In this document: piece after piece, positions 43,482 to 56,475 of the stretch
Layout: each line of letters opens with the position of its first letter
Position numbering within the stretch: position 1 is the first letter of the stretch
Assembly (NCBI RefSeq): GCF_011694815.1
Contig: NZ_CP050177.1
Span: forward strand, 5,496,001 to 5,560,000
From: Streptomyces liangshanensis
GTDB lineage: Bacteria > Actinomycetota > Actinomycetes > Streptomycetales > Streptomycetaceae
Reading direction: 5' to 3'
DNA length: 64,000 nucleotides
Position numbers and translations under genes: made by a program
Notes under the pieces: model-generated
What the model was told of the DNA's origin: nothing
The model's database searches: none
The model's input: the letters and a program-made list of their open reading frames with translations, nothing else

Positions 43482-45317
43482 TCAGTTCGCGGCGGGTTCC
43501 GCCGGTGTCCAGGCGGCGAGCAGCAGTGATTCCGCCGCCGCCGACGCGTAGACCGCCGCGGCCAGCCACGCCCGCGCGAATCCCGTGGGATCGGCGGGCA
43601 GCAGCCGGCCCAGCACGTCGTGGCGCCGGTCCGCCGCCGCCTCGGCGAGTGCCTGGACGCGTTGCGCGCCGGTGGTGAGCCCCACGGCCCGCAGCCGCCG
43701 CGGCAGTTCCCCGTCGCCCGCCGCGGCGGCCACCGCCCGCCCGCCCGCGACCCCGCGCTCCACCGCTCGGCGCAGCAGGTCCAGTTCGACCGGCAGCGCG
43801 GGCGGCGGGGCGTCCGCGACGGACGCGGCCGGTGTGTCCCGTACCGGCGCGACGTCCGAACGGTGCAGCAGGCGCAGGCCCAGATCCGCCCGTACGGTCC
43901 TGTGGTCGTGCCCCGCCCAGGACGCGGCCAGGACGTGTATCCGGTCGGGGCGGTCGGGCACGGCCCGCGCGATCAGCCGCAGCGCCGACCCCGGCCGGGA
44001 GGCCAGCAGGCGGACGTTGTCGGCGTACGGGAGCTCGGGGCGTTCGTCCGGGGCGGCCAGGCGGAGGGTCGGGCCGCCCGTCACGGCGAACCCGGCGCCC
44101 GTGACCGTACCGTCCAGGAACAGCAGGTCACCGCCCGCCGCCCGGGCGTCCGCCGGTTCGGCCGACCAGCGCAGGGCCGCGGCCAGTTGGGCGGCGGGCG
44201 GCCGCTCCCAGAGCCCGGCCAGGGGCGCTTCGTGCCACCCCGCGCCCGTCGCCCGTACGGAACGCACCTGTCCGCCGCCGCCGATCCTGCCGTCCGGGGA
44301 CACGGTCGGGGAGGTGAGGATGACCCCGCCGCCGTCCCCCAGGTCGCGCAGGCCCAGCGCGCAGCCGCCGGGCACGGGGGAGCCCGATGCCTGGAGTGCC
44401 CGTTCCGGACCGCCCGGAGCCACGTCGGAGAGTGTCCTGAGGGTGCCGTCGGGGGCCAGGGCGAAGACGGTGGCGCCCGCGTAGCCGGACGCGGTCACGA
44501 TCGCCTCGGTGAACAGGCCGTGCAGCCGCAGCGGCCCCTCGGGCCGGTAACCGCGGCGCGCGGGCGCAAGGGCCGCCGCCGAACCCCGTACGAGATCCAG
44601 CAGCTCCACCAGATCGGCGGAGAGATCGGACAGCCGGAACGCGGGGTCGTCGGAACGCGCCTCGCCCAGCCGCCGCGCGATCCGCACGGCGGTGGCGGCG
44701 GGGCGGTGCAGCCCCGCCAGCCGCGCGGAGTGCGCCGCGTGGAGCAGCTCGGCCCGGTGCACCGCGCCGGACCCGGTGACCCCGGCGACCAGCACGGCCG
44801 TCGCCGCCTCGCCCAGCGACCCGAGGGCCGCCGACTGCACGGGGGTGAGCGCCGCGGGCGTGACCTGGGCAGGGGCGCCGGCCGTGGGGGTGTCGCCGGT
44901 CGGCGCTGGTACGGCGCCCCTCTCACCGCCCCCGTCCGGTCTGGCGGCGTCGCCCTGACCCGTCACCGTCACGGGCCCGGTCGCCTTGTCGTCTGCCGTT
45001 TCCGCTTCGGCCTCCGCCCCCGCCGCCAGGGGTGCGCGCGACAGGACGGCCGCGCGATGCAGACAGGCGGGCGCCAGCAGGCAGCCGCACACGGCGTCCG
45101 CCGCGTCGGCCACGATCCCCGCCGTGACCCTCAGCGTCACCACCGTGTCCTCGGCGACCCGGACCAGGACGCCGTCGTCGGTCGCCTCCACCGGCCAGCC
45201 GGCCGCCTTCGCCACCGCCCCGTCGACGCGTTTGCGCAGCCGTACGGGCAGCAGGTCGAGCGCGGCGGCCGCGACGTCGGCGGCCACCGGTGGCAGTACC
45301 GCGGCGGGACGAGTCAT
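43482..45317 (-). CDS. SWIM zinc-finger protein (YehQ-like)
   Basis: A 611-residue protein with a SWIM-type zinc site at about residues 77-88 (CGCLLAPACLH, matching C-x-C-x(n)-C-x-H), which in other proteins mediates DNA or protein contacts. The remainder is Ala/Arg-rich alpha and beta segments with a possible propeller-like middle (AALAPARRGYRPEGPLRLHG, then ATVFALAPDGTLRTLSDV). A low-complexity acidic linker lies at about residues 100-150. It is the last gene of the five-gene block. Its ATG overlaps the previous stop by four bases (ATGA). By position and SWIM motif it matches E. coli YehQ; the function is unknown. Confidence 0.82.
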   Translation of the reverse strand: MTRPAAVLPPVAADVAAAALDLLPVRLRKRVDGAVAKAAGWPVEATDDGVLVRVAEDTVVTLRVTAGIVADAADAVCGCLLAPACLHRAAVLSRAPLAAGAEAEAETADDKATGPVTVTGQGDAARPDGGGERGAVPAPTGDTPTAGAPAQVTPAALTPVQSAALGSLGEAATAVLVAGVTGSGAVHRAELLHAAHSARLAGLHRPAATAVRIARRLGEARSDDPAFRLSDLSADLVELLDLVRGSAAALAPARRGYRPEGPLRLHGLFTEAIVTASGYAGATVFALAPDGTLRTLSDVAPGGPERALQASGSPVPGGCALGLRDLGDGGGVILTSPTVSPDGRIGGGGQVRSVRATGAGWHEAPLAGLWERPPAAQLAAALRWSAEPADARAAGGDLLFLDGTVTGAGFAVTGGPTLRLAAPDERPELPYADNVRLLASRPGSALRLIARAVPDRPDRIHVLAASWAGHDHRTVRADLGLRLLHRSDVAPVRDTPAASVADAPPPALPVELDLLRRAVERGVAGGRAVAAAAGDGELPRRLRAVGLTTGAQRVQALAEAAADRRHDVLGRLLPADPTGFARAWLAAAVYASAAAESLLLAAWTPAEPAAN

Positions 45318-48300
45318 CGGCGCGCACCTCCTACGCGTTCGCCGACCCAGCGGGCCAGCTCCAGAGGGCTCAGCGCCGCGACCGGCATGCCGGCCCCGAC
45401 CAACTGGCCCGCGATCCCGGTCGAATAGCGCGGCCTGCCCTCGTCGTCGAGCGAGGCGCAGCCGAGCACATGACACCCGGCGTCCACCAGGGCCCGTACC
45501 TCCGCGAGGAGCGGCGAGACCGGGCCGCCCTCCTCGAAGTCGCTGATCAGGACGACCAGCGTGCGGGACGGCACCGACACCAACCGCCGGGCGTGGCGCA
45601 GGCCCAGCGCGATGTTCGTGCCGCCGCCGACGCTCACCTCCAGCAACAGGCCCAACGGGTCGTCCACCTGGTCGGTGAGGTCGACGACCTCGGTGGAGAA
45701 CGCCACGAAGTGCGTGCTCACCGCGGGCACCCCCGCCAGCACGGCGGCGGTCAGCGCGGCCCAGACCGTCGAGGCCTCCATCGACCCGGACACGTCCACG
45801 ACGAGGACGAGCCGCCAGTCGGCCGTCCTGCGCGCACGGGTACGGAACACGGGGCGCTCCGGCAGCACGGTCGTCGCCCCCGTGTCCGGGTCGCGGCGCG
45901 CCGTCGCCAGGTTGGCCCGGATGGTCCTGGCCAGGTCCAGCGGACCGCCCGGGCGTCGGGTGGGGCGCGGATGGGAGAGGCCGGTGAGCGCGGGGCGCAG
46001 CCGGTTGGCGAGCGCCTCGGTCAACTCGGCCACCAGCCGCGCCACCAGGGGGCGCAGCCGGGCCAGTTGGTGTTCGGGGAGGCCGCCCGCGTACGACAGG
46101 ACCGTCCGCAGCAGCTCCACGGAGGGGCGGGCCGCGCCGGGGTCCAGCTCCATGGCGGCGTCGATCCGCCCCGCGTCGGCGGCGGCCGCGAGCACCTCCT
46201 CGCGGACGCCGGGACCGAACAGCGCGGTCAACTCCTCCGCCCAGGTCCGCACATCCGGGTACGGCGCCCCGTCCCCGCCCCGCGAACCGCCCCGCCCCTC
46301 CTCACCACGAGAGCCCTCACCGCGCCCGGCCCCGTACAACTCGTCCAGGGCGGCGGCGATACGCCCGGCCCCGCCCCGCAACTCCCGCCCCCGCCCCAAC
46401 AACAGCCGCCACCGCTCCCCGGCCGTGAGCACCGCCCCGCCGCCCTCTTCCGGACCACCGCCACCGAGCCCGCCCCCGACGGCCTTGACTGCCTCCGCTC
46501 CGGGACCGGTCCCGACCAGCCCGCTCCCGGTCGTGGGCTTTCCTTCCTCCGGGCCCCGTGCCGCGACCGTAGCGTCGGCCGCGACGACCCCCGTCCCGCC
46601 CGGCCGCGCTTCGGCGCCCGGGCGAGCGCCGCCCGCGCCCGTCGGCCCGAGCAGACCCCTCGCGGTCAGGGCCTCGCGGCCCGCCAGGTCCGCCGACGCC
46701 AGCAGCGCCAGCGCCACCGGGTCCGTCATCGGTCCCGGCAACGTGCCCGCCGCGAGGCCTGTGCGGTCCTCCACCGTGGCCAGGAGGCGGCTCCTCGCCG
46801 CCGGGGAGAGCGTGTCGAAGCCCGCGCGCAGGGCGGGCAGCCGGTCCAGGAAGTCCCGGTCCGGCAGTGCCTCGACCCGCTCGATCAGGGGGTCCAGGGC
46901 GGGCCCCGTCTCCATCAGCGCCCCCGCCGCGAGCAGCGCCCCGCGCAGGAAGCCGCCCAACTCCGTGCGGAGCGCGGTCGTGGTCGCGCCGTCCACCCGT
47001 GACGCCACCCGGACGCCGAACTCCGCCGCGTCCCCGCGCCCCAGCAGCACCCGGGCCACGCCCGCCGCGCCCCGGATCAGCGGGGTCGCGTCGGCCTCCA
47101 GCCGTACCAACGCGGCATCCAGCCGCAGACCGCCACCGAGCGCCGCCGCGGCCCGGCCCGCCAGGGAGACCAGCGCCCGCGCGTCCTCCGCGTCGGTGGA
47201 CCCCGCGAGCCCGTCCAGCGCGCGCACCCCGGCGGCGGTGAGATCGTCGTACGCCTCCGTCAGCGCGGCCCCCTCCCATCCGGCCGGCAGTCCCGGCAGA
47301 TGGCCCGACCTGATCCGGTCCAACAGCGAGAGCCCGTCGAGCAGTTCGGGCAGGGTCCCGGACGCGGGCAGCGACTCGGCGGTCTCCGCGAGGCGTTCCG
47401 CCGCGAGCCCCGGGAGGCCGCAACGCGCGGCCTCCTCCAACCCGGCCAGCACCTCCGGGGCGGTCGGGCCGCCGAGCAGGCGCTCCCGCGCCCGCCGCTG
47501 CCGCAGCGTCCCCTCTGCGGCCTGCTCCAGCGTCACCCCCCGCACACCGGTCACGTCGAGCATCGCGGCCGTCGACGGCGTCCAGGACACCGTCCACCGC
47601 GTCGTCAACGGGCCCGCGTCGCCCACCCCCGCGACCCCGGCCTCCTCCCCGTACGGCACGCGGCAGGCCGCCAGCCGGCGCAGGGCCACCTCGCGGCGCC
47701 GGTCCAGGTCGCCGCGGTGCGCGTCCAGCCGCAGTTCCCGGCGGTCAGGAGCGGCCGGCGTGGGCAGGGACAGTCCGCCGAGGAGCGTCTCGACGGACGG
47801 ACCGAGCCCCGAACGCGGCGTCCCCGGCGCGAGCCGTCCCCGCCTGTCACCGACCAGCACCTTCTCCATCGCGGCGGCCACGACCCGGCCCCGCCCGTAC
47901 AACTGCCCCTGGGTGAGCACGGTCTGCGCCGCCTCGACCAGCTCGCCCCGCCCGGCGGCGGGAAGCCCGCGCAGCGCGGCGAGGTCCCGGGCGACGCGGA
48001 CGACCTCACGGGCGTCGGCGGGGCCGCTGGGGTGCCCGCCGTCCCGCACCGCCACGCAGATCCGGACCGCGGTCGCCGTCAACAGGTCGTCCAGCGGCGC
48101 GGGATCGCCCGCGGCGAGGTGCACCCCGCGCTGCCACTCCGGGTCCCTGATCCCCGCGGGATACCCGGACCGCTCGTCCAACAGGGCGTACGAGTACGGC
48201 ACGAGCGAGGTCACCACGTCGTCACTCCGCGCCCCGCGCGGGGAATCGCTCCCCGGGCCGGGCGCCGCGTCGCCCCCCGCCGGGCGCGACACGTCGGCCT

Positions 48301-49144
48301 CCGCCGACCGCCGCGCGGGGAACCCCGCCCCCTTCGGGCCTTCCGGCACCAGCGCGGGCGCGTGGAAGGCCCCGATGACCGCCGCCGTGCGGCGGCCGGC
48401 CCGTTCGGCCAGGCGGCGGCGCATGTTCGCCTCCCGGCGGAGGTCGTACGGGTCGACCGCACCCGCGTCCGCCCGCAGGGCCCACCCCACCAGCAGCGCG
48501 GCCCGCCGCAGGGCTTCCGGCCCCGAGCCCGGGGCCATGGTCTCGACCAGCCGGTCCCACAGATCGTCCCCGGCCCGCCCGCCGGCCCGCGCCCGCAACG
48601 CGGCGGTCAACGCCCCACCGTGACCGTCACCGTTCGGCCCCGCCTCCGCGTCCCCCGGAGCCACCCACTCACCCCGGCCCTCCCCGCCCGGGCCACCGCT
48701 GTCGGGTCCACCAAGCTCCGGGCCGCCCCCGTCCGGGCCGCCGCCAGTACCCCGCGCCCCCAGCGGCAGGTCGAACGCGACGACCTCCACCCCCGCCTCC
48801 CGCGCCCAGCGGATCGCGGCCAGTTCGGGGGAGAACTCCGCGAACGGCAGGAACACCAACCCGCCGCCCGTCCCGTCGGCCCGGCCGCCCGCCAGGGCCA
48901 CCGGGGGGACCGTCGCCGGGTCGGCGAGATACGGCAGCCAGGGCGCGAACTCCTCCGGCAGTTCCACGAACAGCACCTCCGGCGCCGCGCGCGTCAGCAT
49001 CGCGGGCACGGCCGCCGCCAACGCGGGGGAGTGGTGCCGTACCCCGATCAGATACGGCTCCCCGCACCCGGCCAGCCGTTCCAAAGCCTCCCCGGGCACC
49101 CCCGCCTCGCCGAGCGGCCCCAGCTCGTCCTCACCCGAGTTCAT
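45314..49144 (-). CDS. DUF5682-VWA fusion protein (YehM-YehP-like)
   Basis: A 1276-residue fusion. The N-terminal DUF5682 region opens with EPYLIGVRHHSPALAAAVP and VLFVELPEEFAPWLPYL, and has TAAVIGAFHAPALVPEG at about 260. The middle, about residues 330-880, is mostly helical. Residues 880-1000 are low-complexity. The last 250 residues hold a VWA domain with MIDAS motif LVVDVSGSMEAST, GGTNIALGL and VLISDFEEGG. In E. coli the two halves are separate genes (yehM, yehP). ATG 49144 has GGGAG 7 bases upstream and lies inside the end of the ATPase gene (14-base overlap). VWA plus MoxR pairs act as metal-insertion or complex-remodelling machines. Confidence 0.87.
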   Translation of the reverse strand: MNSGEDELGPLGEAGVPGEALERLAGCGEPYLIGVRHHSPALAAAVPAMLTRAAPEVLFVELPEEFAPWLPYLADPATVPPVALAGGRADGTGGGLVFLPFAEFSPELAAIRWAREAGVEVVAFDLPLGARGTGGGPDGGGPELGGPDSGGPGGEGRGEWVAPGDAEAGPNGDGHGGALTAALRARAGGRAGDDLWDRLVETMAPGSGPEALRRAALLVGWALRADAGAVDPYDLRREANMRRRLAERAGRRTAAVIGAFHAPALVPEGPKGAGFPARRSAEADVSRPAGGDAAPGPGSDSPRGARSDDVVTSLVPYSYALLDERSGYPAGIRDPEWQRGVHLAAGDPAPLDDLLTATAVRICVAVRDGGHPSGPADAREVVRVARDLAALRGLPAAGRGELVEAAQTVLTQGQLYGRGRVVAAAMEKVLVGDRRGRLAPGTPRSGLGPSVETLLGGLSLPTPAAPDRRELRLDAHRGDLDRRREVALRRLAACRVPYGEEAGVAGVGDAGPLTTRWTVSWTPSTAAMLDVTGVRGVTLEQAAEGTLRQRRARERLLGGPTAPEVLAGLEEAARCGLPGLAAERLAETAESLPASGTLPELLDGLSLLDRIRSGHLPGLPAGWEGAALTEAYDDLTAAGVRALDGLAGSTDAEDARALVSLAGRAAAALGGGLRLDAALVRLEADATPLIRGAAGVARVLLGRGDAAEFGVRVASRVDGATTTALRTELGGFLRGALLAAGALMETGPALDPLIERVEALPDRDFLDRLPALRAGFDTLSPAARSRLLATVEDRTGLAAGTLPGPMTDPVALALLASADLAGREALTARGLLGPTGAGGARPGAEARPGGTGVVAADATVAARGPEEGKPTTGSGLVGTGPGAEAVKAVGGGLGGGGPEEGGGAVLTAGERWRLLLGRGRELRGGAGRIAAALDELYGAGRGEGSRGEEGRGGSRGGDGAPYPDVRTWAEELTALFGPGVREEVLAAAADAGRIDAAMELDPGAARPSVELLRTVLSYAGGLPEHQLARLRPLVARLVAELTEALANRLRPALTGLSHPRPTRRPGGPLDLARTIRANLATARRDPDTGATTVLPERPVFRTRARRTADWRLVLVVDVSGSMEASTVWAALTAAVLAGVPAVSTHFVAFSTEVVDLTDQVDDPLGLLLEVSVGGGTNIALGLRHARRLVSVPSRTLVVLISDFEEGGPVSPLLAEVRALVDAGCHVLGCASLDDEGRPRYSTGIAGQLVGAGMPVAALSPLELARWVGERVGGARR

Positions 49145-50294
49145 CGCGCAGCTCCCACAGCGTCCGCCACAGCGGGGCACCCGTTTCCGCGCGGCGGCGG
49201 ATCGGGCCGTCCCAGTAGCCCAGCAGTCGCGCGTGGTCCGCCGGGTCGTCCTTCCGGACCGTGCCGAGCAGGTGGCCGGGGAGCGTGCGCAGGATGTCCC
49301 GGCCGTCGCCCAGATACGCCGCCCCCAGGCCCATCGCCGTCGCCACCTGCACCGCCTCCGCCGTCGACATCACCGTCGAGGGGCGCTCGATCTCCCAGCC
49401 CTCCGCGCTCCGCCCGGTCCGCAGGTCCCGGAACGCCGTGATCAGGGCTTCGAGCACGGTGTCGTCCACCGAGAACCCCGCCCCGCTCCGCGCCAGCGCC
49501 GCCGTCGCCTGGCCGCGTACCAGGGCCGTCTCCGCGTCCAGGTCGTCGATCGGGCCCACCGTCTCGAAGTTGAACCGCCGTTTCAGCGCGGCGGACATCT
49601 CCGAGACCCCCTTGTCGCGCAGGTTGGCCGTGGCGATCAACGTGAAGCCGGGCGCCGCGTGCACCGTGCTGTCCCCGTCCTCCCCGCCGGCCAGTTCGGG
49701 CACGGACATGCGGCGTTCGGAGAGCAGCGAGACCAGCGCGTCCTGCACCTCGGGCAGGCAGCGCGTGACCTCCTCGATCCGGGCCACCGCGCCCCGGGTC
49801 ATGGCCCGCAGGACGGGGGAGGGCACCAGCGCGTCCCGGCTCGGGCCCTTGGCGAGGAGCATCGCGTAGTTCCAGCCGTACCGCAGCTGGTCCTCCGTGG
49901 TGCCCGCGGTGCCCTGCACGGTGAGCGTGCTCGTGCCGCACACGGCCGCCGCCAGCAGCTCGGAGAGCATCGACTTGGCCGTACCGGGCTCGCCCACGAG
50001 GAGCAGCCCGCGCTCGCCCGCCAGCGTCACCACACACCGCTCCACCAGTGAGCGGTCGCCCACGAACTTCCGTGACACCGCCAGCTTCCCGCCGTCCGGC
50101 GCCGTGAGCGGCACGCCGTCCGTGCCGCAGACGAACAGCACCACCGCGCGGGGCGTCAGCCGCCAGCCGGGCGGACGCGGCCCTTCGTCGTACGACGCCA
50201 GGAACGCCAGCTCCGCCGCGAAGCGGTCCTCCGGCAGCTCCACCTGCCGGGCGCCGCCGCCCGCCTCCGGCGCCGGCACGGTCTGTTCCCTCAT
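49131..50294 (-). CDS. MoxR-family AAA+ ATPase (YehL-like)
   Basis: A 387-residue chaperone-type ATPase, the same length as E. coli YehL. Walker A is LLLVGEPGTAKSML. The Walker B position reads ARIEEVTRCLPEVQDALVSL, Glu-Glu instead of the usual Asp-Glu; I recall this as normal for the YehL subgroup. Sensor 1 is TLIATANLRDKGV and the arginine-finger region is SAALKRRFNFETV. The C-terminal lid has IERPSTVMSTAEAVQVATAM. MoxR ATPases work with VWA partners, here the next gene. ATG 50294 overlaps the end of the 1690-residue gene by four bases. Confidence 0.92.
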   Translation of the reverse strand: MREQTVPAPEAGGGARQVELPEDRFAAELAFLASYDEGPRPPGWRLTPRAVVLFVCGTDGVPLTAPDGGKLAVSRKFVGDRSLVERCVVTLAGERGLLLVGEPGTAKSMLSELLAAAVCGTSTLTVQGTAGTTEDQLRYGWNYAMLLAKGPSRDALVPSPVLRAMTRGAVARIEEVTRCLPEVQDALVSLLSERRMSVPELAGGEDGDSTVHAAPGFTLIATANLRDKGVSEMSAALKRRFNFETVGPIDDLDAETALVRGQATAALARSGAGFSVDDTVLEALITAFRDLRTGRSAEGWEIERPSTVMSTAEAVQVATAMGLGAAYLGDGRDILRTLPGHLLGTVRKDDPADHARLLGYWDGPIRRRAETGAPLWRTLWELRDELG

Positions 50295-53200
50295 CGTCTG
50301 CCTCCCCGGGCGCCACGGCCCTTGAACTCCTCGAACGCCGGCAGGTCGCCGCCGTCCACCCGCCGCCACGCGGCCTCGAACAACGCGGGCACCGGCAGGT
50401 CCGGCACCACGAAGCCCGGCCTGTCGCGCGGCAGCAGCGCCGTCTTCCAGCTCTCCACGGGCAGCCGGGGCGCGTCCTTCTCCTCCAGCCAGCCGCCGGG
50501 CAGGAACAGCGTGCGCCCCGCGCGGGCGCGCCTGCCCTCCACCACCCGCTCCGTGGCGGTCAGTTCGGCCCGCGCCTTCTTCAGCCGGGCCGGCTTCCAC
50601 CCCGTCCACGCGGCCTGGTTGCGGTCGGTCGGGTCGGGCAGCGCCAGCAGCATCAGGTAGAGCGCGGACGCGTCCTCGGACATCCCGGACCGCTCCGCCA
50701 CCTCGGCCACCAGCCCCGGCACGCTCGACCGCGGGTCCTGCGCGGGGCCGGCCGGGCCGTCCGCCGAGACCAGCGCCAGGAACTCGTCGCTCAGGACGGC
50801 CCGCAGCGCCTCCAGCGCGGACCCCTTCCCCGCCGTGGCCACCAGGAGCGTGAGGTCCGGGTGGTCGGGCCCGCCGCCGCCCCCGCCGTCGACCCCCGGC
50901 TCGGGCAGGACCGCCGAGGGCCGCACCCAGATCTCGTCGCTCTCCGTCCGCCACCGTGTCGGCGTCAGGACCAGCGCGGCCGACAGCTCGAAGAACTCGG
51001 CGTCGCCCGCCGCCCGCTTGGGCGCCAGCCCGTACGCCTCCCGCAGGCGCGGCGCCACCGGGTCGTAGGCGAAGTCCCGGTCGACGCCCAGGTCCATCAG
51101 CAGGCCCGGGTCCGCCAGCCTTTCCCGCAGCCGGAGCACCGTCTGGGGGAGCACCGCCCGCAGCGGATCACCGAACGGGAGCCGGTACGCGAGCCAGCGC
51201 AGGGCCTCGACCCAGTTGCCCAGCGTGCTCCCGGTGAGCAGCCGCGTCGCGTCGGCCGGCTCCAACCGGCCCTCCACCAGGCGCTGTTCCGTACGGCCCG
51301 TCAGCTCCGCCTGCCACGCCGGGTTGAGCACGGCGTCGACCGCCTGGCTCGCGCGCAACTCCGCCGACACCGCGCGGATCACCGAAGGCGGCAGGACCCG
51401 CCGCTTGCCGCGCGCCGCGACCCACTCGCCCACCAGCGGCTCCGCCGGGAACCCGGCGGTCCACAGGTCGGCCACCCGCTCCGGATCGGCAGGCAGCAGC
51501 AGGGCGGTGAGGGACCGCCGCTGCTCGGTGCCCAGCGCGCGCAACAGGGACACGGCCCAGTCCAGTTCGGGCTTCTTCACGTCCAGCGGTTCCAGGAATT
51601 CGGCCGGCACCTGGTCACCCCCGTAGTGGTTCAGGCCCGGGCAGCCGAGCTGGAACAGCACGCCCGCCGTCGGCGTGATCCCCACGCGCTCCGCGAACTC
51701 CACGCCCAGCTCGGGACGGTACGGCAGCGGACCACGCTCACGAACCGACTCCACCAGGCGGCGCACCGCCGGAGCCCGCACCGGGTCGTCCGCCGCGCCC
51801 AGCACCTGGGATCCCGTGACGGTGGTGCCCTCCCAGGCCCCGAAGACGCCGGCCGGGTCGTACTCCAGGCACTGCCAGTACTCCTCCTTCTCGTCGGCCC
51901 GCGAGCAGCCGACGATCAACAGCCGCCGCGCGCCCGCGTGCCGCACCTCGCCGCGCACCCGCTCGTCGGCCTCCTCCGCCTCCTCGTCCTCGTCCGCTTC
52001 CTCCTCGGGGCCGACCGGCATCCGCAGCTCCACGATCCGCAGCCGCCCCCGCGGGTCGACCATGATCGCCGCACCGTCGTCCTCACCGGCCTCCCCGGGA
52101 CCCGCGCCGGCCTCCGCCCCCGCCCGCACCGCCAGCGCCGCGTCGAGGAACTCCAACAGGGCCTCGCGGCGCGGCTCCGACGTCACCGGCAGGGCGGCGC
52201 GGACCGCCAGGGCCACCAGCGTCGATCCGTACAGCGGCACCCAACTGTTGCTCCCGGGCGCGGCCTCGGGCAGCCCCGGCACCCCGTCCGCCGCGAGCAG
52301 CCCCGCCACCTGCGCGATCTGGTCGAAGGTCGCCGTCGTCCCCGGGGACGTGCGCCGGTACCCGAAGTGGTACCCGTTGGGCGCGAGTCCCTCGAACGCC
52401 TCCCCCAGCACCTGGTCGTACGCGTGCCGCACCGCGGGACCGTCCGCCTCCGACTCCCCGGGACCCCGCTCCGACCGCTCGGCGAGCCGCGCGAGACGCT
52501 CCGCGTGGCGGGCCGACTCCTTCACCAGGCCGGCCACCCCCGCCACCAGCCCGGGGTGGGTGACCCCGGGCAGCAGCGCGCGCACCGCGTCCACCGGTTC
52601 CGCACCACCGGCGACGGCCGACAGCAGCGCCTCCGCGTCCGCGTCGGTGACCGTGCGCAGCGCCGCCGAACCCCGCTCGTCGCGGGGCCGCAGCGCGTGC
52701 CAGTGCGACGTCGGCGGGACGAGCCGCGTGCCCGCGCCGTACGTCCCCTCCGAGCCGCCCGCGGTGTGCCGGGCGACATGGATCCCCTCGCCGTCGTACA
52801 GGTCGATCTGCGCGCCGCCGTACGCGGGCGTCTCGCGCGGGTGCAGGATGGCTCCGCCGGGCAGCCGCATCGGCGGCAGCGGCACCCCGGAGTCCTCGGG
52901 GACGGCCGGCCCGCGGGTGCCGTCCACCGAACAGGCCGTGAGCGTCTTCGCGTCCGGGTCGTGCGTCACGTACCAGCCCAGCAGCCCGTCCTTCGTCCCG
53001 AACGGGGAGGACTCCAGGCCGGGGCGCACCGGAAGCAGCCGGCAGGCCCTCTCCCGCAGCCGGACGGCGTCGCCGGTCAGCGCCGACGCGAAGAAGGCGG
53101 GCACGGAGACGCGGCCCCGGCGGGCCGACGCCGGGTCGTACTCCCACCACTGGTCCTCGTGCAGGACCCAGACGGAGATGCCGTCGGAGGCGACCGGCCT

Positions 53201-55363
53201 GCGCTCGTCCGCGAACGAGATGTCGCCCGGGTGGACCGGCCGCCCGCCGTAGCAGCGGCCCCCGCCGGGCAGGGGGAGCGAGGGCACACCGCCGCCGTTG
53301 CCCTGTCCGTGGATCTCGCCCTGGGGCTTGAACACCTCGGTGGGACGGCCCGACCACACACCGCGCCGGTCGTCACCCCATCCGTTGACGACGAGCCACT
53401 GACCGTCCACATACGCGACGTGCGTCGTGTCCCACGTGGTCTTCGAGACCGCGGGCAGCGTCAGCGTCCGCCGGTCGAGCACCTGGTCCGGCCCGGCCGC
53501 CGCCACCTGGAGGCCGACCCGCACGACCAGCGCCGGCCAGGCGTCCGTCAGCCGGTACGGCTCGTCGGCGCCCTGCTTGGCCCTGCCCGCCGGGGCCCCG
53601 TTCCTGGGCGACTTCCCCAGGTGCGGCAGGGCCTCCTCCAGCCCCTGATGACCCAGCTCGTCGAGGATCCCGGCGCGCAGGGTCCGCGCCAGGGCCGGGG
53701 CGGGGGACACCGCGGTGATCCGCCGGACCGCCCCGGGCGCGGTGGCCAGCACGGACGGCGACGAGAAGCGCGCCAACTGGTTCAGCCTGTCGTTCAGCTC
53801 GGGCATCCCGAACGGCCGGGCCAGGTCGTCGGCCCGCTCCTCCAGCCAGCCCGCGAGCACCGTGCGCAGCGCGGGGTGACGGGCCATCGATTCGAGCAGC
53901 TCCGGCGCGTTGCCACGGCCGGCCTCCTGCTCCACGGCCGCACGCAGCGCCCGGGCGAAGCGCGGCTCCGAGGTCACCGCCACCAGGTCCCTGCGGCCCT
54001 CCCGCTCGTCGGACAGCCAAGCGCCCAGGTGCACCTCCCGCCCCTCGCCGGAGAGATCCTCGATGGGCACGCCCCAGGCGACACAGGCGTCCAGCAGGTC
54101 CAGGTCCACCCCGGTCCGCCAGCCGGTCCCGCTGCCCAGCCGCACCGGCACCGCGTCGGCGACCAGCCGGTCCACCAGCCGCTCCACCAGGGTCAGTTCG
54201 GCGGCGAGCCGCGGGGTCTGCCCCCAGCCACGCTGCCGGTGCGCCGCCCAGGACGTCAGCCAGCCCGCCGCCGGGACCGTGCCGTCCAGCAGCAGGTCCA
54301 CCGCCCCGCACCGCTCCAGCAGGGCCAACCACGCCTCGTCGAAGCCCACCTCGGCGCCGCCACCCGGGGCCGGCATCAGCGACAACAGCCGCTCCCGCAC
54401 GGTCAGGTCCTCCGTCGCCACGTCCGACAGCGACGCCAGGGCCGTTTGCCAGAAGCTCGCCGCCGCGCGGCTCATCGCCCCCGTGTGGATGATCTCCGCC
54501 AGCAGGGACCGCTCCTCGGCGCGCGCGTCGAGCCCGGCTCCCTTCGACAGGCGCCGCAGATCCTCCAGCATGCCCGCGTACGGGGCGAGCCCGGCCGCGC
54601 ACCGCTCCAGGGAAAGGGTCTTGAACTGCTCGTACGCCTCCGCGGGCGACAGCCGCACCGCGAGCCCCCTCGCGTGCTCCCGCAGCGCCTTGGCGCTGAG
54701 CGCGCCCGCCGCGGCGAACTCCAGGAAGACCTCCCGCAGCCGCGCCTCGTCCACCGCCAGCGCGTACCGCTGCTCGGCCGTCCTGGCCTTCCCGAAGAAC
54801 GTCGCCGCCTGCGCCGTGGACTCCACGGCCAGGAAGAGCCGCGCGACCTGTTCGTAGAAGGTGGGCAGGAAGTGCGGTACGGAACGGTCGAGGCGCTCCC
54901 CGATCTCGTCGAACCCCTCCTTCGCCAGGCCGGGCTTGGTGGCGACGAGCCGCGCGAGCCGCTCCATCTCCTTGACCACGGCGAGCGCGTGGTGCCCGTT
55001 GCCCGGGTCGTTGACCAGCGCCCACGCCGGGAAGCCCAGGGACTGCCGCTTCACCCGGCCGACCTCGGCGACCTCCTCCGCGGCGAAGCCCAGATACTCC
55101 ACGGAGAGGTCCTCGGCGGCCCCGATCGCACCGGGGACCAGCCGCACCACCGTGCGCCCGTCGAGCACCGGATGGCCGTACGCCCGCGCCGTCAGCACGT
55201 CGCCCGGCGCGGCCCCCTCCTCCGCGCCCAGCGGCAGCACCGCCCCGGCGCCCAGCAGATCCGCCGCCGACAGCCCCGCCCCCAGCAGCCGCCCCTCGCT
55301 CACAACGCCCCCACTCACAGCACCCTCAGGCACGACAACCCCGCCCACAGCACCCCCGTTCAC
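50291..55363 (-). CDS. Uncharacterised 1690-residue protein in the MoxR-VWA block
   Basis: The largest gene of the window. No signal peptide, membrane helix or enzyme motif is visible. It opens with a Gly/Val-rich stretch, then YLGFAAEEVAEVGRVKRQSL and helical repeats to about residue 600. A middle part rich in Trp and Gly (TTWDTTHVAYVDGQWLVVNG, WVLHEDQWWEYDPAS) looks beta-propeller-like. An acidic linker is at about 1160 (EEEADEDEEAEEADERV). The helical C-terminal part ends VDGGDLPAFEEFKGRGARGG. GTG 55363 follows GAGGAGGGGG and overlaps the DUF4132 stop (GTGA). Position equals part of E. coli yehI, but the homology is unproven. Confidence 0.82.
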   Translation of the reverse strand: MNGGAVGGVVVPEGAVSGGVVSEGRLLGAGLSAADLLGAGAVLPLGAEEGAAPGDVLTARAYGHPVLDGRTVVRLVPGAIGAAEDLSVEYLGFAAEEVAEVGRVKRQSLGFPAWALVNDPGNGHHALAVVKEMERLARLVATKPGLAKEGFDEIGERLDRSVPHFLPTFYEQVARLFLAVESTAQAATFFGKARTAEQRYALAVDEARLREVFLEFAAAGALSAKALREHARGLAVRLSPAEAYEQFKTLSLERCAAGLAPYAGMLEDLRRLSKGAGLDARAEERSLLAEIIHTGAMSRAAASFWQTALASLSDVATEDLTVRERLLSLMPAPGGGAEVGFDEAWLALLERCGAVDLLLDGTVPAAGWLTSWAAHRQRGWGQTPRLAAELTLVERLVDRLVADAVPVRLGSGTGWRTGVDLDLLDACVAWGVPIEDLSGEGREVHLGAWLSDEREGRRDLVAVTSEPRFARALRAAVEQEAGRGNAPELLESMARHPALRTVLAGWLEERADDLARPFGMPELNDRLNQLARFSSPSVLATAPGAVRRITAVSPAPALARTLRAGILDELGHQGLEEALPHLGKSPRNGAPAGRAKQGADEPYRLTDAWPALVVRVGLQVAAAGPDQVLDRRTLTLPAVSKTTWDTTHVAYVDGQWLVVNGWGDDRRGVWSGRPTEVFKPQGEIHGQGNGGGVPSLPLPGGGRCYGGRPVHPGDISFADERRPVASDGISVWVLHEDQWWEYDPASARRGRVSVPAFFASALTGDAVRLRERACRLLPVRPGLESSPFGTKDGLLGWYVTHDPDAKTLTACSVDGTRGPAVPEDSGVPLPPMRLPGGAILHPRETPAYGGAQIDLYDGEGIHVARHTAGGSEGTYGAGTRLVPPTSHWHALRPRDERGSAALRTVTDADAEALLSAVAGGAEPVDAVRALLPGVTHPGLVAGVAGLVKESARHAERLARLAERSERGPGESEADGPAVRHAYDQVLGEAFEGLAPNGYHFGYRRTSPGTTATFDQIAQVAGLLAADGVPGLPEAAPGSNSWVPLYGSTLVALAVRAALPVTSEPRREALLEFLDAALAVRAGAEAGAGPGEAGEDDGAAIMVDPRGRLRIVELRMPVGPEEEADEDEEAEEADERVRGEVRHAGARRLLIVGCSRADEKEEYWQCLEYDPAGVFGAWEGTTVTGSQVLGAADDPVRAPAVRRLVESVRERGPLPYRPELGVEFAERVGITPTAGVLFQLGCPGLNHYGGDQVPAEFLEPLDVKKPELDWAVSLLRALGTEQRRSLTALLLPADPERVADLWTAGFPAEPLVGEWVAARGKRRVLPPSVIRAVSAELRASQAVDAVLNPAWQAELTGRTEQRLVEGRLEPADATRLLTGSTLGNWVEALRWLAYRLPFGDPLRAVLPQTVLRLRERLADPGLLMDLGVDRDFAYDPVAPRLREAYGLAPKRAAGDAEFFELSAALVLTPTRWRTESDEIWVRPSAVLPEPGVDGGGGGGPDHPDLTLLVATAGKGSALEALRAVLSDEFLALVSADGPAGPAQDPRSSVPGLVAEVAERSGMSEDASALYLMLLALPDPTDRNQAAWTGWKPARLKKARAELTATERVVEGRRARAGRTLFLPGGWLEEKDAPRLPVESWKTALLPRDRPGFVVPDLPVPALFEAAWRRVDGGDLPAFEEFKGRGARGGRR

Positions 55364-56256
55364 AGCGCCCCCTCCTCTTCGCTCTCGACCACACGGCCCG
55401 CGAACACCAGCGCGGCCATCCGCTCGCCCTCGGACCAGGCGACCGGGCCCACCTCACCGAGCGGCAGCCGCCGCCCCGTACCGTCCCGCCACTCCAGCGC
55501 GCCCGTCCGCGCCTCCGCGTCCGGGTAGTCGCCCCCCAGCCAGTACGCCGCCTCCAACTGCCGCCCGTCCTCGACCAGCCGGCACAACGCCTGACCGCCC
55601 CGCACCCGGTAACCGAGCGTCAGCGCCCGCCCGGTGGCGTGCCGCAGCTGCGCGAACTTCCCGTTCGCGTACGCGCTCCAGCCCGTGTCCGTGCCGGCCG
55701 CCCCCACGACCCCCTCCGGCCGCTGCCACACCTCGCGGAACAACTGCTCCACCCCCTGCTCGACCTTCAGCTCCGCCGCGAACTCCCGCAGCTCCGCCAG
55801 GTCCTCGAGCAGCACCGGATGCGGGATCAGCACCGACGGCACCTCGGCCGGCGCCAGCCACACCGAGTCCCCGTCGAGATCCACGATCCCCAGCCCCTTC
55901 ACCGGGTCGGCGTCCCGCAGGAACCCGGCGCGCGCGGTGTCCGCCGAGCCGTCCCCCGCCACCGGCGCCACCACCAGGTCGCGCAGCGCCGCCTGCCACG
56001 CCGTGTCCGGCCATACCCGCGCCAGCAGCGCGACCGGCACCGGCAGCGACCGCACCAGCCAGGCGTCGACCTGCTCCCGGCACTCGCCCTCGTGCCGCGC
56101 CAGCCACTCGGCCAACTGCCGCAGCCTGACGACCTCGACGTCGTCCTTCAGCTTCGGCGGCACCTGCTTCAGCGCCCTGCCGGCGGCATTGCGGCACAGC
56201 ACCCGCGTGCCTTCCAGCGAGACGGCATACCCGCCCGCCGTTTCGATCCAACCCAT
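55360..56256 (-). CDS. DUF4132 domain protein (YehI/MolR-like fragment)
   Basis: A 298-residue protein starting MGWIETAGGYAVSLEGTRVL. The first 120 residues match the DUF4132 pattern (VLCRNAAGRALKQVPPKLKD, LAEWLARHEGECREQVDAWL, VWPDTAWQAALRDLVV), found in E. coli YehI and MolR. The rest (GFLRDADPVKGLGIVDLDGD, HPVLLEDLAELREFAAEL, FREVWQRPEGV, LGYRVRGGQALCRLVEDGRQ) is also typical of the C-terminal part of those proteins. It is therefore the C-terminal half of a YehI-type protein made as a separate chain. First gene of the five-gene block; ATG 56256 follows GGGGAGGGG. A promoter should lie in 56257-56475, but I cannot assign it with confidence. Confidence 0.85.
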   Translation of the reverse strand: MGWIETAGGYAVSLEGTRVLCRNAAGRALKQVPPKLKDDVEVVRLRQLAEWLARHEGECREQVDAWLVRSLPVPVALLARVWPDTAWQAALRDLVVAPVAGDGSADTARAGFLRDADPVKGLGIVDLDGDSVWLAPAEVPSVLIPHPVLLEDLAELREFAAELKVEQGVEQLFREVWQRPEGVVGAAGTDTGWSAYANGKFAQLRHATGRALTLGYRVRGGQALCRLVEDGRQLEAAYWLGGDYPDAEARTGALEWRDGTGRRLPLGEVGPVAWSEGERMAALVFAGRVVESEEEGAL

Positions 56257-56475
56257 GGCAGGACCCCTCCCCGACCTTCTGGTTCTCGAACTGATCACCA
56301 CGTTAGGCGGGGGGTCTGACAACGCCCCGATCGGCCCGGCGAGCCGGTGGACCAGCGGCCGTGCCGGGCCGCCGAACCGGTCGGGAACGCGCGGAGGGAA
56401 CGCGCGGAGGGGCCGCGCGCCCACGACGCCCGGCCCCTCCGACAGCGCGGCCTCGTCCCGAGGCGCCGTCCCGCG

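Follow-up and report, generated by a model that had tools for sequence, protein, structure and literature searches.

What switches on the yeh-type MoxR–VWA clusters, and on what do they act? MoxR–VWA pairs of this type occur in bacteria as far apart as E. coli, Streptomyces and clostridia, and have no settled function. The question is raised here by a five-gene block of Streptomyces liangshanensis, which lies on the minus strand at 43482-56256 of the stretch analysed (the window: 64,000 nucleotides of contig NZ_CP050177.1, with positions counted from its first nucleotide). In order of transcription, the block encodes a short DUF4132-domain protein, a 1690-residue protein, a MoxR AAA+ ATPase, a DUF5682–VWA fusion and a SWIM-type zinc-finger protein. 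In front of the first gene lies a promoter motif of the RecA-NDp (PafBC-type) class, a control signal that had not been noticed in an earlier note made from the sequence alone. In our estimate there is an even chance that the operon makes a DNA-damage-induced, ATP-driven machine, switched on by PafBC, in which MoxR and a VWA-tethered predicted hydrolase act on protein. As the damage promoter is conserved, the function of the yeh-type pairs becomes directly approachable.

Promoter motif upstream of the operon

The motif, TTGTCAGAC-N8-TAACGT, occupies 56300..56322 on the minus strand, and 43 nucleotides (nt) separate its end from the first ATG. The minus-strand sequence at this place, TTGTCAGACCCCCCGCCTAACGT, is situated between that ATG and an upstream neighbour which, going by its sequence, we take to be a permease-like gene. 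At the upper-case positions, TTGTCAGACCCCCCGCCTAACGT matches tTGTCRgtg-8nt-TannnT, with GAC replacing gtg; the latter is the consensus reported for mycobacterial DNA-damage genes that are independent of LexA/RecA (PMC5656591). A related form, TTGTCAGTGGC-N6-TAGggT, is described in the ultraviolet (UV)-inducible recA promoter of S. rimosus (PMC2375139), and SCO6735, located behind a promoter of the RecA-NDp type, is also reported to be UV-inducible (PMC5087735).

The host genome is a single contig of 7.7 Mb, in which the strict pattern TTGTCRG-N10-TA-N3-T occurs 33 times, the window site included, compared with three times for the reversed pattern. With a weight matrix built from 31 sites of this genome (the two sites at MoxR clusters being excluded), the window site scores 21.5. 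The genome also carries the PafB and PafC genes in tandem; their products were recognised by a PDB search, NCBIfam having assigned no family. In mycobacteria, PafBC is reported to be activated by DNA damage through single-stranded DNA (PMC11804915).

The genes led by other copies of the motif were scanned at 20 of the 33 sites, which were hand-picked, partly for looking known; the downstream protein was taken as the product of the best-coding open reading frame (ORF) starting at most 330 nt from the site. Eight of the 20 belong to repair or replication, namely RecA, NAD ligase (ligA), UvrC, DNA polymerase III alpha, RuvC, uracil-DNA glycosylase and two proteins that we presume to be RadA-like and DinG-like. 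The remaining 12 have no evident repair role, which weighs against damage control of the operon: a WGR-propeller protein, SUKH, TerD, an Hsp90-like protein, PhoH, a lectin-like protein (OAA-type), a sigma factor (sigma-70-type), an MFS transporter, MoaA, an amine-oxidase-type protein and two proteins without a family. Genes such as those of the MFS transporter and the lectin-like protein would fit a general strong promoter, or a target of another regulator such as ClgR, which is reported at the P1 promoter of M. smegmatis recA (PMC5656591); the operon would then not be damage-induced. This explanation is improbable in our view, as the sites number only 33 in 7.7 Mb and include those of recA, ruvC, uvrC, ligA and the uracil-DNA glycosylase gene, and as the S. 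rimosus recA promoter and that of SCO6735, which are of the same type, are reported to respond to UV (PMC2375139, PMC5087735).

Two observations concern the sites themselves (loci are designated by L numbers). At L051 (site G000:C1:656029), a WGR protein with PQQ-type beta-propeller repeats stands behind a strict motif. At 56300-56322 of the window, as at L053, L055, L059, L062, L070, L100, L110 and L133, the motif has the sub-form TTGTCAGACC in place of TTGTCAGTGG; this accounts for five of the 33 sites of the host genome, one of which precedes ligA, and might point to another activator or to a difference in strength.

Conservation of the motif in Streptomyces

The short DUF4132 protein is present in 118 of 295 Streptomyces genomes. 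In a census of the 400 nt upstream of one copy per genome (n = 118, each cluster being defined by its first gene only), the strict motif was found in 79 regions, a score of at least 18 in 111 and a score of at least 15 in 117. The antisense strand gave no site at score 18, none at score 15 and no strict match; base-shuffled upstream sequences gave no strict match and a single score of at least 18 in 2360. Fourteen additional copies of the gene are carried by 13 of the 118 genomes, and 10 of the 12 that were fetched score at least 18. At L090 (16917-19891), an extra short DUF4132 gene lies near a second, weak match of the 1690-residue type, in tandem.

Among 99 upstream sequences less than 85% alike, the fixed columns of the motif hold 2.25 bits, the spacer 0.34 and the two flanks 0.12 and 0.37. 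Both the choice and the alignment of these sequences followed their best site, and the motif columns are thereby at an advantage; the pattern is still what selection on the site, beyond shared descent, would leave. These sequence comparisons suggest that Streptomyces makes use of the RecA-NDp motif. In S. venezuelae, the first search of one study is reported to have missed the mycobacterial form of the motif (PMC9380542). A damage link of the cluster in actinobacteria was not found in searches of one open-access library; a published list of 67 S. coelicolor genes with such motifs (PMC2375139) may hold genes of the cluster.

Related clusters in actinobacteria

A second cluster of the host genome (L081) has the genes of a SWIM protein and a HEAT-like protein, divergent from those of MoxR, DUF5682 and VWA. 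In the scanned counterparts, the HEAT-like protein is DUF5691, and its gene adjoins the SWIM gene (L042, 5793-7427; L045, 10551-12263). The SWIM gene of L081 starts 7 nt behind a strict motif. The SWIM protein of this core cluster is present in 95 of 101 Streptomyces genomes, and the strict motif in all 30 of the 30 best loci; on the MoxR side, a motif variant with CA for TA and a score of at least 18 is found in 29 of the 30. The core Streptomyces cluster (L042, L081, L321-L350) has divergent promoters with two RecA-NDp-like sites.

Twenty further loci, of three MoxR subtypes, have a site scoring at least 18 in 17 cases and none in L032, L034 and L041; both sites of L050 lie beyond the mapped cluster genes. 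The YehL-like type was scanned in 17 named actinobacterial loci. In six of them (two from Lentzea, one from Kibdelosporangium and three from Streptomyces), a site of at least 18 stands directly upstream of the DUF4132 gene; two have a weaker one there (L113, 15.3; L135, 17.2), two have a weak site elsewhere (before MoxR in L121; not placed relative to the genes in L126), and in seven the matrix scan found no site.

The motif-led DUF4132 protein has an N-terminal WGR domain in L110, L118, L133 and L031; in L033, no WGR was detected by Pfam. The clusters L110, L118 and L133, composed of WGR-DUF4132, MoxR, DUF5682, VWA and SWIM genes, follow the same operon logic as the window, with a RecA-NDp-like site before the WGR-DUF4132 gene. 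In these clusters, WGR is present and no protein of the 1690-residue type was found, whereas the window shows the reverse. Compared with the MoxR of the window, that of this branch resembles YehL more closely (62% identity for L033).

Gene products and proposed mechanism

Successive genes of the block (43482-56256, minus strand) overlap by 4, 4, 14 and 4 bases; the coordinates and strand given in the earlier note were confirmed, and its assignments of DUF4132, MoxR and DUF5682–VWA proved right, as probably did that of SWIM. The first gene (55360..56256, minus strand) encodes a 298-residue DUF4132-domain protein (Pfam PF13569, E=1.4e-23), in which Pfam detected no WGR domain. The MoxR AAA+ ATPase (49131..50294, minus strand; 387 residues; AAA_5, E=1.3e-39; P-loop GEPGTAKS) is of the YehL type and shares 47% identity with E. 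coli YehL over 362 columns (E=2.6e-97). The DUF5682–VWA fusion (45314..49144, minus strand; 1276 residues) combines PF18934 (E=3.3e-185) with VWA_CoxE (PF05762, E=2.5e-64), and its VWA domain, at the C-terminal end, has the metal-site residues DxSGS...T...D. The last gene (43482..45317, minus strand) encodes a 611-residue protein whose match to the SWIM family PF04434 reaches 11.7 bits, below the cut-off of 19.6. Despite this sub-threshold match, the SWIM label is supported by the zinc-ligand motif CxCx5CxH, which the protein has at residue 77 and which recurs in 16 of 17 relatives, the 17th (L094) being apparently in a wrong reading frame.

For the 1690-residue protein (50291..55363, minus strand), no Pfam family reaches the cut-off and none is assigned. 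It has 1010 homologues among 7992 proteins scored, with no Pfam domain in the 120 listed; the closest named relatives among the matches listed are from Streptomyces (86% identity), and no solved relative was found by sequence. An AlphaFold2 model of residues 561-1690 has a predicted local distance difference test (pLDDT) value of 83.4, and the top rows of a structure search with this model are mostly beta-propellers. The protein is thereby predicted to hold a beta-propeller at about residues 600-870. The idea that it is an enlarged DUF4132 protein corresponding to YehI was rejected; profile comparison with DUF4132 proteins gave a probability of 0.1%.

The N-terminal domain of DUF5682 is predicted, from a structural model and its matches to known structures and on weak but agreeing scores, to be a hydrolase of the TIKI superfamily (TIKI, Ere esterases, ChaN and TraB), with which it would share its fold and conserved His and Glu residues. 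H37, E61 and H261 are invariant in all 10 sequences chosen without the motif; they are also invariant in 46 of 46 motif-picked sequences, in which the picking motif itself fixes H261. A search by sequence for solved DUF5682 relatives gave eight rows (best E 0.012) with no member of the TIKI group. What sets the domain apart from the TIKI enzymes is its linkage to a VWA domain and an extended helical region.

The machine proposed for the operon would work as follows. DNA damage would activate PafBC, which would switch on transcription from the RecA-NDp promoter. MoxR and the VWA domain would then unfold or extract a target protein at the expense of ATP, because known MoxR–VWA pairs are reported to act on proteins in an ATP-driven manner (PMC7159879). 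Because of the TIKI-like domain of DUF5682, the target protein is predicted to be cut, and the DUF4132, SWIM and propeller proteins might choose it. PARP-type WGR domains bind DNA breaks; the presence of WGR in relatives, together with the SWIM finger, suggests that targets could be chosen at DNA lesions. If the hydrolase prediction is true, the operon would add an ATP-driven protease of a new type to the DNA-damage response.

Gene order and relation to known systems

The close relatives comprise 20 loci with MoxR of at least 73% identity, 19 of which were fetched at length. The five-gene order is identical in 18 of them, and the 19th is truncated at a contig end after three genes. In a wider survey, one genome per species was scanned with a MoxR alignment; the best 80 loci among the matches listed span Proteobacteria, Actinobacteria, Firmicutes, Planctomycetes, Verrucomicrobia, Spirochaetes, Bacteroidales, Myxococcota and others. 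MoxR, DUF5682, VWA and SWIM occur in order on one strand in 66 of the 80, and the DUF4132 gene is there too in 56, with loci truncated at contig ends counted as misses in both tallies. This conservation exceeds chance by far, and extends the order well outside this strain, as the earlier note had held.

The link which that note drew to E. coli yehI/L/M/P/Q is likewise upheld by Pfam families on both sides and by the identity of MoxR to YehL. The E. coli yeh locus (yehF/molR, yehI, yehL, yehM, yehP and yehQ) has DUF4132, MoxR, DUF5682, VWA_CoxE and SWIM in the same order as the window. DUF5682 and VWA are separate genes in E. coli but fused in the window, and the one large DUF4132 protein of E. 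coli is replaced by a short DUF4132 protein and an unrelated propeller protein; the window cluster is therefore a variant of the yeh-type MoxR–VWA cluster and no typical member. The split form of the window, with short DUF4132, 1690-type, MoxR, DUF5682–VWA and SWIM proteins, is found again in the planctomycete L171 (Laterigemmans) and in L179, a Myxococcales bin. L179 differs from the window in that WGR is fused to its short DUF4132 counterpart (E=1.6e-18).

The cluster also resembles the MoxR–vWA ternary conflict systems, in which a vWA protein is described with a putative effector and a beta-propeller is part of the system (PMC7159879). The cluster might accordingly be a conflict system: phage infection would damage DNA and induce the operon, and MoxR–VWA would set the hydrolase domain free to attack targets of the host or the phage. 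In multicellular bacteria, MoxR–vWA pairs whose vWA protein bears effector domains are reported to be conflict systems (PMC7159879, PMC8195603), the P-loop GEPGTAKS has the GXXXTAKS form noted in two published conflict systems (PMC7159879), and the subtype of the window is patchy, occurring in 118 of 295 Streptomyces genomes. We nevertheless hold this explanation to be unlikely. In the published propeller-type systems the propeller is described on the vWA protein (PMC7159879), whereas in the window the predicted propeller is in the 1690-residue protein and none was found by Pfam in DUF5682–VWA; because of this difference, the cluster is not a member of those systems. SWIM, WGR and YehL are not mentioned in the main text on them (PMC7159879). 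The gene order is preserved over phyla, and the core paralogue, with its SWIM gene in 95 of 101 Streptomyces genomes and its fixed promoter, is unlike a fast-turning conflict gene. PADLOC gives no defence family for the five proteins, only two traces below 15 bits. The earlier note had spoken of a conflict or stress system. The stress part stands and is sharpened, because of the RecA-NDp promoter, to what is most likely DNA damage; the conflict part has so far found no backing, no PADLOC family exceeding 15 bits.

Reported regulation by LexA and DdrO in other bacteria

The head gene of the E. coli yeh locus is reported to be under DNA-damage control, which the motif suggests for the operon of the window as well; the regulator is LexA in E. 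coli, whereas the window has a PafBC-type site. Upstream of yehF, which we take to be the start of the old molR, an imperfect palindrome of the LexA type, CTGGATAAAATTACAG, is found at a distance of 9 bases. The head gene molR is listed as a LexA/SOS gene (PMC11039860, PMC4576408, PMC3978071). In D. radiodurans, depletion of DdrO is reported to strongly raise DRA0166 (DUF4132) and DR2173 (WGR) (PMC8533742).

These loci also bear on a different activity, the insertion of a metal or cofactor, in which MoxR and the CoxE-type VWA protein would mature a molybdenum or other metal enzyme. CoxD and CoxE mature a molybdenum/metal enzyme, and VWA_CoxE is the best VWA family in the window. A MoaA-type gene (L076) stands behind a motif site in the host genome, and the name molR refers to the use of molybdate (reference 69 of PMC8533742). 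Such a role seems quite improbable. Molybdate genes of D. radiodurans, moeA or moeB for example, are reported to be unchanged on DdrO depletion, under which the DUF4132 and WGR genes rose strongly (PMC8533742); the five genes include no evident apo-enzyme, and eight of the 20 scanned motif-led genes belong to DNA repair or replication, compared with one MoaA.

Returning to the damage-induced machine, a broader reading would make the yeh-type system an unnamed arm of the DNA-damage response, in which the same machine is placed under LexA in E. coli, DdrO in Deinococcus and PafBC in actinobacteria, and works as a WGR-, SWIM- and DUF4132-guided AAA+ protease with a TIKI-type blade that strips or cuts proteins at lesions. 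We put this forward tentatively and hold it to be rather unlikely. New here are the probable damage control of the cluster, the prediction of a hydrolase and the apparent way in which unrelated damage regulators converge on one system.

Several scans argue against damage control as a rule for all bacteria. In 27 loci regarded as Firmicutes, the cluster showed no LexA box. In 22 proteobacterial loci including E. coli, six exact CTGT-N8-ACAG sites occur in five loci, which by a hand estimate is about the number expected from length alone. In the four of these five that were examined for it, the sites stand in front of other ORFs, which in the case of the L104 pair is lexA itself; in the fifth, L102, the site is inside the DUF5682 gene. 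Among 23 proteobacterial-type loci, seven WGR-type starts were recognised in six loci (the E. coli start being missed), and before these starts no box was found even when one mismatch was allowed. A box scan of two alphaproteobacterial loci gave one distant site. Judged by sequence, no LexA box in proteobacteria other than E. coli is convincing.

Two single observations touch on these genes. The MoaA-type molybdenum cofactor gene behind the motif site at L076 is perhaps tied to the old molybdate label of molR. In Massilia atriviolacea (L104, 376-9924), the cluster, which there includes two WGR-DUF4132 genes, is situated, as a single case, just downstream of lexA with its double LexA box.

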